From contig JAGMDF010000045.1 in assembly GCA_023128825.1 (NCBI GenBank), positions 1-48,276 on the forward strand: a stretch of DNA of 48,276 bases, read 5' to 3'. Below the pieces are notes generated by a model. That model had not been told where the DNA came from, did not search any database, and saw only the letters and a program-made list of their open reading frames with translations. Numbering within the stretch: the first letter of the stretch is position 1; every line of letters starts with the position of its first letter. A program made the position numbers and the translations under genes. Shown one piece after another: positions 21,939-25,209 of the stretch. The stretch comes from Caldifarciminota bacterium (GTDB lineage: Bacteria; Hydrothermota; Tepidihabitantia; B3-TA06).

Positions 21939-22205
21939 TTACTTTCCCTCCTTGAACCGCTTTACCAGCTTCACGATCTTGTTAACGGTGTCGAACGCCG
22001 TAGGCGTGGCGTCTTCGTCCGGAATCTTGATCGCATACTTCTTCTCTAAAAACACCTTGAGTGAAACCATGGAGAACGAATCCACGATTCCGCCGGAGAT
22101 AAGCGGGGTCTCAGGGGTCAATTCATCGGCCTCTTCCTCGTCGTCAATGTACTCGTTCTTGACGTAGGTAAGAACCGCGTCTTGTAATTGCTTTTCATCA
22201 AGCAT
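21939..22205 (-). CDS. Acyl carrier protein
   Basis: 88 residues from the ATG at 22205 (MLDEKQLQDAVL), preceded by AAGGAG; the open frame extends to 22247 without a Shine-Dalgarno. The phosphopantetheine site is the Ser in GGIVDSFSMVSL, followed by the helix LKVFLEKKYAIKIPDED. It is acidic and four-helical in pattern. It lies directly upstream of kbl and is thus probably a dedicated carrier rather than the fatty-acid-synthesis ACP. Similar stand-alone ACPs serve serine-palmitoyltransferase-type enzymes in some bacteria. Confidence 0.85.
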   Translation of the reverse strand: MLDEKQLQDAVLTYVKNEYIDDEEEADELTPETPLISGGIVDSFSMVSLKVFLEKKYAIKIPDEDATPTAFDTVNKIVKLVKRFKEGK

Positions 22206-22334: not shown

Positions 22335-22400
22335 TATTTGTGGAACAGCCTCTCTAGGCTGTTCTTAATATCAAGCACAGGCTGGAGAGCCTGTGTCACA
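22335..22400. repeat. Paired hairpins upstream of the HEPN-like gene
   Basis: GAACAGCCT-CTCT-AGGCTGTTC (about 22339-22360) and ACAGGCT-GGAG-AGCCTGT (about 22377-22394) stand between the ACP and the plus-strand gene. They match the architecture of the hairpins at 20144-20690. Confidence 0.6.
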
Positions 22401-22428: not shown

Positions 22429-22457
22429 TTGACATAACCTTAGTTGAAAGATATAGT
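22429..22457 (+). promoter_or_regulatory. Promoter of the HEPN-like gene
   Basis: TTGACA (22429-22434), 17-bp spacer, TATAGT (22452-22457). AGGAG at 22471-22475 precedes the paired ATG codons at 22478 and 22481. Confidence 0.7.
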
Positions 22458-22477
22458 TGGGGAAGAAAATAGGAGAC

Positions 22478-23650
22478 ATGATGAACAAGATCAGAGAGGC
22501 GATGGATCGCTTGGCGATTAACAAAGGGGTTAAGCCTCAGCCTATTCCAATTTTGAAAGACAGAAAGCATGTCCTCTATCTGATTGAAGGGTTTCATGGT
22601 GCCGCACCTGTTCACTTTACGATCCAGAATCTAGGGTCTAATGCCCGGGCCGGAATTATGTCCAGATTAGCTATGCTTGAGTTTGATCTATTTACTACGG
22701 AAGAAATTAATCTAAAACTATCCGAATCGTGGATGTTATGGAATCAAATAAATCCTCTTGATACTCAAGCTCGATTGATACTTGAGAATCCCACAGTTAT
22801 TTGGGTGCCAGTTCAACCCCAAATACCTGAAGGTATTGTGGCGTCTTTTTCAAGCGCTGAGCATCTTCTTAGTTTTTTTGCTATTCACTCGAAGTTTGAT
22901 TTTATGTCTGTTCCATCATTTCCTAGAAGTAACCGCATCTACAAGTCTGCCACTGGTGTTGTGCTTTCCTCAGAAGGAATTACTCCGATTCCACCTCCGC
23001 CAAGTGCGTCTTCTCCTAGTACTGTGCAAGCTGTGGGTTTTGACCTATCTGGATTTTTGGATGCGTCGGAAGTAATTGAAGCATACTGGCGGGCAATAAG
23101 TTGGAGGAGACAAGCAAAGGTTATACCTACATTAATTGATAAGTTTGTCTATTTGTGGGTTTCAATGGAATCAACCTTCCCTCGAAAAAAGGAATGGCAT
23201 AAGTCAAAACGAATTCGTGATAATGTCTGTATGCTTTGGGGGAAATTCCCTACGGACATTATGAATAATCTAGATTCTAAGTATAAGACGGATATAATCG
23301 CCCAAGAGACGAAAATTGATGAACTTGGAGCCTTAATTGTACGAACTTACCAACAATTCCGAAGCAATATCCTTCACTACGGAGAATTAGATGCAGAGAT
23401 AAATCCTGCTTTGACAACAGATATTATAACTGCTATAGAGGCATTTCGTGACGTTAACCTCAGATGTTGTTGGCTTCTTGAGTATTCAATAAAGGAAAAG
23501 GGAATAGATGATTTAAGAGCCGTTTGGGAACCTTTGAATGTTTTAGAATTTGTTTGTACAAGTGCCGATAAAAACCCAGAATTTTTAAGACACGTACCTT
23601 TTGATGATCCAAACCTTCGACTTTCAACAAATCTCCTTTCCTTCATATGA
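22478..23650 (+). CDS. Unknown AT-rich protein with a HEPN-like RxxxxH motif
   Basis: About 390 residues; ATG 22478 or 22481 (better spaced from AGGAG) is preferred over a TTG at 22457. No signal peptide. The N-terminal half is unrecognised; a Pro/Ser-rich linker (PIPPPPSASSPSTVQ, about 175-190) splits it from a helical C-terminal half. There RTYQQFRSNILHYGELD carries R-x4-H in the setting seen in HEPN/Apea-like domains (compare R..I.H.G), and LIDKFVYLWVSMESTF resembles their first helix. The base composition is visibly more AT-rich than neighbours, suggesting transfer. An RNase or defence role is only an inference. Confidence 0.6.
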   Translation: MMNKIREAMDRLAINKGVKPQPIPILKDRKHVLYLIEGFHGAAPVHFTIQNLGSNARAGIMSRLAMLEFDLFTTEEINLKLSESWMLWNQINPLDTQARLILENPTVIWVPVQPQIPEGIVASFSSAEHLLSFFAIHSKFDFMSVPSFPRSNRIYKSATGVVLSSEGITPIPPPPSASSPSTVQAVGFDLSGFLDASEVIEAYWRAISWRRQAKVIPTLIDKFVYLWVSMESTFPRKKEWHKSKRIRDNVCMLWGKFPTDIMNNLDSKYKTDIIAQETKIDELGALIVRTYQQFRSNILHYGELDAEINPALTTDIITAIEAFRDVNLRCCWLLEYSIKEKGIDDLRAVWEPLNVLEFVCTSADKNPEFLRHVPFDDPNLRLSTNLLSFI

Positions 23651-23755: not shown

Positions 23756-23830
23756 AAGTTCGTAGGGGCCGACTTTCAAGTCGGCCCGCTCACATAAAAC
23801 TTCGGGCTGACCTGAAGGTCAGCCCCTACT
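23756..23830. repeat. Direct repeat with two hairpins, left copy (flanks hicB)
   Basis: Starts with a 51-bp block (23756-23806) identical to 24163-24213. It contains GGGCCGACTTTCAAGTCGGCCC-type and GGGCTGACC-TGA-AGGTCAGCCC hairpins. Confidence 0.85.
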
Positions 23831-23915
23831 TTCTTATTCTTTTCGGGGTCCACGCAACAATGCAAAGCACGCTTGCGACGACGGTTACGGAGTAATGTTG
23901 TGGGGTGTTAATTGA

Positions 23916-24122
23916 TCACACAGCGACAACGATTGTCTCGAAGCGTTCTTCCGGGACAGGAAGGCCGTCTTCTTTGAGTGCCTCGATGTATCCCTCGATT
24001 GCTTCCTTGACGTTGGCTACCGCCTTTTCCTTGGTCTTCCCTTGAGAAACGCAGCCGGGCAAACTGGGGCACTCGGCCACCCAGTATCCGTCTTCACCTC
24101 GATAGATAACAACCTGTCTCAT
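23916..24122 (-). CDS. hicB: HicB-like (UPF0150) antitoxin-type protein, solitary
   Basis: 68 residues: VVIYRGEDGYWVAECPSLPGCVSQGKTKEKAVANVKEAI is the HicB/UPF0150 fold. It has no C-terminal DNA-binding domain. No HicA-like toxin ORF is visible on either side within the repeat-filled spacers, so it is an orphan, or part of a decayed module. The ATG lies 6 nt after its -10 box (leaderless geometry). Perfect 51-bp direct repeats stand about 100 bp and 40 bp away on its two sides. Confidence 0.85.
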   Translation of the reverse strand: MRQVVIYRGEDGYWVAECPSLPGCVSQGKTKEKAVANVKEAIEGYIEALKEDGLPVPEERFETIVVAV

Positions 24123-24162: not shown

Positions 24163-24263
24163 AAGTTCGTAGGGGCCGACTTTCAAGTCGGCCCGCTCAC
24201 ATAAAACTTCGGGTTGACCTGAAGGTTAGTGTATTATTCGGGCCGGTCTAAAGACCGGCCCCT
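24163..24263. repeat. Direct repeat with hairpins, right copy (flanks hicB)
   Basis: The 51-bp block 24163-24213 equals 23756-23806. The following hairpin differs at paired positions (TTGACC / GGTTA instead of CTGACC / GGTCA). A further hairpin GGGCCGGTC-TAA-AGACCGGCCC ends near 24262. Confidence 0.85.
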
Positions 24264-25209
24264 ACGTTTTGACTCCTTAATACCTCATACCGTTCATACC
24301 CGAGGGCGCGGGGCACTCGCCTGGCGTGTATTTCATCAGAGTTGAGGGTGACACGTCAGCGACCACTCACAAGGTGATCCTGATCCATTAACTCCCCCTC
24401 CCTTAGTGGAAGGGGTAAGGGGGAGGGGATACAAGGAGGAAGAAAACGAAATCAGCTAGACAAGGGGCTTAAGCCCATTGTCGAATCCCCCTGTATCCCA
24501 CTTAGTAAGGGGGACTGCTTTGCCCCTCTTCTGAAGGGGGGTGCCCGAAGGGCGGGGGGATTAAAGGGAGGTGGCCGCTTCTAAGAGCGGTCGGAGGGAT
24601 TTATTATTCCCCCCTCCCCTTTATCACCTACCCGACCGGGAAGGGGTAATCCAAACTATGGCTGAGATTTTAGAAGTTCACTTTGGGAACTTCACAGTAT
24701 ATTATCTCCCCCTTGACGGGGGAGAATTAAAGAGGGGGTGAGATAATTCCGCAAGCGTAGCCCTTCGATGCCACGTCGGTCGTGTCTAGACACTCTCTCC
24801 TCGCAATGACACCCTAACCCTTGATCCCTCTACCCGACGAGGGCACGATGTGCAGGCTGGAGTACTAACCCCACAAGGGAAGGGGAACTTGCGACGATTG
24901 AGGTTTCCCCCTCCTCGGTGGACAGTGTGCCCCTTGGGGTGCTAACTTTACTGCACCCCATAGGGTAGGGGGATAAAGGGGGCGGGGATACACCCCAAAA
25001 ACCCTCAAAAATACCCCAAAATCGCCCCGTTTTTGTCCAACTTTTGACCACCTTTTGACCACCTTTTGACCACCTTTTTTGTGACGAGTTGGTGCCGAGT
25101 TTTAGCCGAATAATGCCGCGAAAAGTGCGCTCCCCCGGCTTGAAAAAGGGTAAGGGCCGGCGTCAAAACCGACCCCTTCATTTATTGTAAGTTAAAGATT
25201 TCAGGTAAC
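24264..25209. repeat. Repeat-rich spacer between hicB and acsA
   Basis: No convincing gene in about 945 bp. It holds G-tract hairpin repeats at 24533-24563 (GCCC-GAA-GGGC core) and 24566-24603 (CCGCTT/AGAGCGG core), a CCCTTG...CATAGGG hairpin at 24930-24966, degenerate CTCGCAATGACACC ends near 24800, and three exact 11-nt units of CTTTTGACCAC at 25041-25073. Open frames here are low-complexity readings of these repeats. Confidence 0.75.
25041..25073 (-). repeat. 11-bp tandem repeat, three exact units
   Basis: Unit CTTTTGACCAC (complement GTGGTCAAAAG) three times in a row, with degenerate half-units on both sides. The same unit forms the array at 46079-46133. Confidence 0.9.

Follow-up and report, generated by a model that had tools for sequence, protein, structure and literature searches.

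The locus between the acp-like gene and hicB in the 48,276-nucleotide stretch of Caldifarciminota DNA analysed here (the window) holds one AT-rich gene. The question that it raises is whether this gene encodes a HEPN-type RNase of a defence or toxin system, and whether hicB and the hairpin repeats around it belong to the same unit, as an earlier note on this DNA had proposed. The features are listed in Table 1.

Table 1. Coordinates of the features of the acp-hicB locus in the window
Feature	Position	Strand	Basis
acp-like gene, left edge of slot, core and syntenic	21939..22202	-	gene order shared with sister genomes
Dispersed double-hairpin repeat, left of gene	22338..22400	.	23 matches genome-wide
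Candidate sigma-70-like promoter, TTGACA-N17-TATAGT	22429..22457	+	consensus match alone
AT-rich gene, 389-aa MauJ/HEPN-like protein	22481..23650	+	ORF, codon bias, homologue in G002
N-terminal half, ~residues 1-183	22481..23030	+	no recognisable relative outside its own family
MauJ/HEPN-like domain, ~residues 196-340	23066..23500	+	weak Pfam match, profile-profile comparison, background scan
R-S-N-I-L-H (R294...H299), proposed RNase motif at predicted helix-3/4 junction	23360..23377	+	R294 and H299 kept in G002; aligned with MauJ Rx4H
Dispersed double-hairpin repeat, right of gene, terminator-like, right edge of variable slot	23756..23832	.	repeat search
Orphan hicB-like gene, not partner of HEPN-like gene	23916..24122	-	same gene in sisters whatever the slot holds

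The gene has a GC content of 0.40 and a GC3 of 0.33, the lowest GC3 among the long ORFs of the window (0.43–0.77 in all the others and 0.57–0.77 in most), which bears out the earlier claim that it uses AT-ending codons far more than its neighbours. Its frame closes at 23650 and could open either at TTG 22457 (397 aa) or at ATG 22481 (389 aa). The ATG is more likely the start, because AGGAGA stands just 5' of it, the start of the homologue in the sister genome G002 aligns with it in a pairwise alignment, and the in-frame TTG overlaps the -10 region of the promoter-like site. This site matches 11 of the 12 consensus bases. However, a scan found three sites of such quality against about four expected by chance, and the idea that the gene has its own promoter is therefore favoured by the quality and position of the site alone.

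We searched 147 genomes of the phylum with the window protein (E ≤ 0.01) and observed matches in two others. The sole full-length homologue is in G002, a sister Stahlbacteria genome of the same genus, on a contig that corresponds to SOJW01000068.1 ('Candidatus Stahlbacteria'); the identity is 37–38% (38% over residues 1-376). In G120 the match spans 56 residues within the C-terminal half, at 44% identity. The broad vertical conservation that the earlier note had set against its own proposal was thus absent. The G002 homologue is likewise AT-rich (GC3 0.34 versus 0.67–0.73 in most neighbours and 0.49 in one); its locus is another one, flanked by genes for an aldehyde dehydrogenase and a tautomerase. 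In G120 (L009:112-2247) the distant relative comes after a gene for an Mrr-like restriction endonuclease (Mrr_cat in Pfam, E 1.4e-5), a defence-like neighbour.

Wider searches with the window protein found no match in the Pfam, PADLOC, NCBIfam and PHROGs collections; no PDB sequence matched significantly, and plasmids, phages and viral contigs gave none. A sample of 390 genomes from ~300 genera yielded weak matches with internal stops and nothing more; weak matches in G046, G004, G246 and G353 were treated as chance, most being short and interrupted by internal stops. The gene is almost an orphan.

The surroundings of the gene are core. The order mutS, kbl, acp, slot, hicB, acs, tdh is the same in G002, and G001 follows it as far as acs, tdh not being found in the G001 stretch taken. 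Upstream of acp, the conserved sequence, compared by eye, stops at GATGCAAGTRGG in the window, G002 and G001, just past the likely acp promoter, and on the right the edge of the slot is a dispersed double-hairpin repeat in both the window and G002. The slot holds one gene, which differs among the three genomes. In G002 it encodes a 274-aa protein (L042:5633-6457, GC3 0.39) matching the PADLOC TIR effector model PDLC00733 with E 1.1e-9 (TIR-type effectors being represented in Pfam by CAP12/Pycsar TIR, PF10137); it is likewise an AT-rich single gene, but its product is unrelated to the window protein. The G001 occupant (L043:5047-5892, putative start, GC3 0.27) is also AT-rich, contains LWSGIEAL and RSTVVHGE, which supply a HEPN-like E and R-x4-H, and weakly matches Swt1-HEPN (PF18731, E 0.14); it has no detectable homology to the window protein.

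A second slot, between the aldehyde dehydrogenase and tautomerase genes, contains the homologue in G002, a gene for a 213-aa protein in G001 (L058:4533-5174) and one for a 169-aa protein in G000 (L057:4342-4851); the last gave no defence signal. In the G001 protein a possible PD-(D/E)XK-like D...EAK stretch was seen by eye. These slots are not full defence islands. Of the accessory island proposed earlier, what stands is an accessory one-gene slot between acp and hicB with a changing occupant; that hicB and the hairpins are members of one island with the gene is not supported.

HEPN toxins are common in toxin–antitoxin pairs (PMC3710099), and the hicB-like gene lies ~265 bp downstream of the AT-rich gene on the opposite strand. 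The AT-rich gene could accordingly be the toxin of such a pair, its antitoxin being encoded by hicB or by a small gene that escaped notice. We regard this as very unlikely. The same hicB (98.6% DNA identity) adjoins occupants of other, unrelated kinds in both G001 and G002; since all three species have it regardless of which gene fills the slot, it is not tied to the HEPN-like gene. In G001 it is still adjoined by hicA as an intact pair, the window and G002 having lost hicA, and no hicB was noticed in the listed neighbourhood of the G002 homologue. The linkage and co-inheritance expected between antitoxin and toxin were hence not found for hicB, and it was rejected as partner. The AT-rich gene has no small gene joined to it, nor does any partner gene adjoin it. 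The orphan hicB described earlier is real, but its membership of the same island is not supported.

While mutS, kbl and acs are 82–90% identical in DNA to their counterparts, hicB is 98.6% identical to those of G001 and G002, with three differences seen against ~22 expected at the kbl rate, and the segment 23776-24197 (hicB with its flanking repeat) is 97–99% identical to the sister species. This suggests a recent interspecies exchange of the hicB-repeat segment, strong constraint on hicB DNA being an alternative; such exchange would be a plausible vehicle for swapping slot contents. The repeats (22338-22400, 23756-23832 and 24163-24266) fall into two double-hairpin families, each with ~20–40 matches in the genome; neither matched Rfam. 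Repeats do lie on both sides of the gene, as had been noted, but being dispersed genome-wide they are not borders of an island.

What, then, does the gene encode? The earlier note had pointed to RSNILH in the C-terminal half, and the motif is indeed present at residues 294-299. By itself, however, it is no evidence, because 36% of shuffled versions contain at least one R-x4-H (8% an R[NDHS]x3H) and another, RKKEWH, lies at residues 235-240 of the protein itself.

Comparison of profiles was more informative. In single-sequence Pfam searches the G002 homologue weakly matched MauJ (PF17419; E 0.06, or 0.026 with the domain alone), its 14.6–15.8 bits being short of the curated cut-off of 28 bits, and the window protein gave no match. 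MauJ and ApeA-HEPN members were gathered from genomes, and a two-sequence profile of the C-terminal domain was compared with them. With the MauJ set we obtained a probability of 72% (E 3.5e-5, score 37.4) over 91 columns, with Rx4H placed on Rx4H and the motifs in register. None of 300 column shuffles reached 37.4 (maximum 21.6); the reversed domain scored 11.5 and the N-terminal half 16.0. When 203 real ORFs were scanned against MauJ, no proteins outside MauJ rose above background except those of the window (34.9), G120 (34.1) and G002 (32.3), the next scoring 22.9. MauJ was chosen owing to the weak Pfam match of the G002 homologue, which leaves the test less than fully independent of that match; the sequences from the window and G120, missed by Pfam, are independent of it.

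Could this likeness be a generic similarity of helices, the protein being a lineage-specific orphan of another fold? The identity in the MauJ alignment is low (13%), the probability of 72% is not above 95%, and AlphaFold with the two-sequence input gave pLDDT values of 34.1 for the whole protein and 43.8 for the domain, too poor to judge whether it has the four-helix bundle of the HEPN superfamily; the helices, predicted with low confidence, are compatible with a helical bundle. Against such a reading stand the shuffle, reversal and N-terminal controls, the 203-ORF background and the fact that the three members were picked up separately, and we consider it quite unlikely.

From MauJ to HEPN the connection is made by a MauJ-like protein, L040, which weakly matches HEPN_MAE_28990 (E 0.0033) and HEPN_RiboL-PSP (E 0.004), both matches covering the segment with its Rx4H. 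This step, resting on weak matches, is the weakest in the argument, and we found no biochemical work on MauJ in the literature. Because MauJ-like proteins show these weak links, a HEPN identity of the window protein is probable. The protein is, however, not of the ApeA type: the HEPN_Apea profile (PF18739) did not match it and gave a probability of 0.45%, and ApeA membership was rejected. The profile search that had been suggested for the C-terminal half thus points to a MauJ-type rather than an ApeA-type relative, the window sequence by itself matching no family.

The residues expected of a HEPN RNase were examined in the homologues. R294, H299 and E230 are identical in the two full-length members, in whose alignment RSNILH and RNEVVH are in register. 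The acidic residue upstream of the motif, E230, is invariant in the window, G002 and G120 proteins and may lie in helix 2, as placed with low confidence in the predicted model. The G120 relative carries RVGLIH, which MAFFT left unaligned with the R-x4-H of the other two. Both marks of the HEPN superfamily, R-x4-6-H and an upstream acidic residue (E230), are thus present.

A HEPN fold does not guarantee cleavage, since some HEPN families have lost motif and activity (PMC3710099). The domain might instead be a helical, nucleic-acid- or partner-binding one with a housekeeping or regulatory role, its motif being structural. MauJ owes its name to a methylamine-utilisation cluster and not to a defence role, and in G120 the residue after R is V rather than a polar one, as would fit such a role. 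On the other hand, R, H and E are kept in both full-length members, and the patchy distribution, the AT bias and the slot shared with a TIR effector suggest conflict genes. We therefore judge a non-catalytic HEPN domain unlikely.

Among known systems, the window protein is most likely a divergent representative of an established kind. With MauJ it shares ~91 C-terminal columns, including A-x-S-x-Y/W-R, F-x-x-x-W-x-x-x-E and R-x4-H, a similar total length, and the C-terminal place that the domain has in several MauJ members. It differs in falling below the Pfam cut-off, in an N-terminal half unrelated to that of MauJ by hhalign and in having no adjoining methylamine genes. ApeA resembles it in being a lone gene of accessory distribution with a long N-terminal part and a C-terminal HEPN-like domain with RN-x3-H, but the two lack profile similarity; PMC7699616 counts ApeA as a HEPN defence system. 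The N-terminal half, reported earlier as unrecognised, indeed matched no family in Pfam, PADLOC, NCBIfam, PHROGs or PDB sequences; we propose that it is a sensor or regulatory part.

The action attributed to single-gene HEPN defence proteins such as ApeA is to halt the growth of the phage or to put the cell into arrest. On balance, and with slightly better than even confidence, we favour a self-contained sensor–effector, a MauJ/HEPN-like RNase carried as cargo and acting in phage defence or growth arrest. The gene would have been acquired horizontally into the single-gene acp-hicB slot, with the lineage-specific N-terminal half, possibly sensory or autoinhibitory, fused to the divergent MauJ/HEPN-like domain. 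On a trigger, the predicted domain would cut RNA through the R294/H299 pair with E230 in support, probably as a HEPN dimer, and through this cutting phage growth would cease or the cell would go into arrest. A bolder possibility, which we hold as doubtful, is a new and very rare one-gene HEPN defence class of the candidate phylum WOR-3/Stahlbacteria with an undescribed N-terminal sensor, swapped gene by gene in intergenic slots by localised recombination around the hairpin-repeat/hicB segment.

If the favoured sensor–effector reading is true, MauJ-like proteins, named for methylamine use, would be added to the HEPN RNases as probable effectors of conflict, and defence genes of uncultivated bacteria would be worth looking for in small single-gene slots amid housekeeping genes rather than in large islands. 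Slot comparison offers a cheap, similarity-free route to further candidates.
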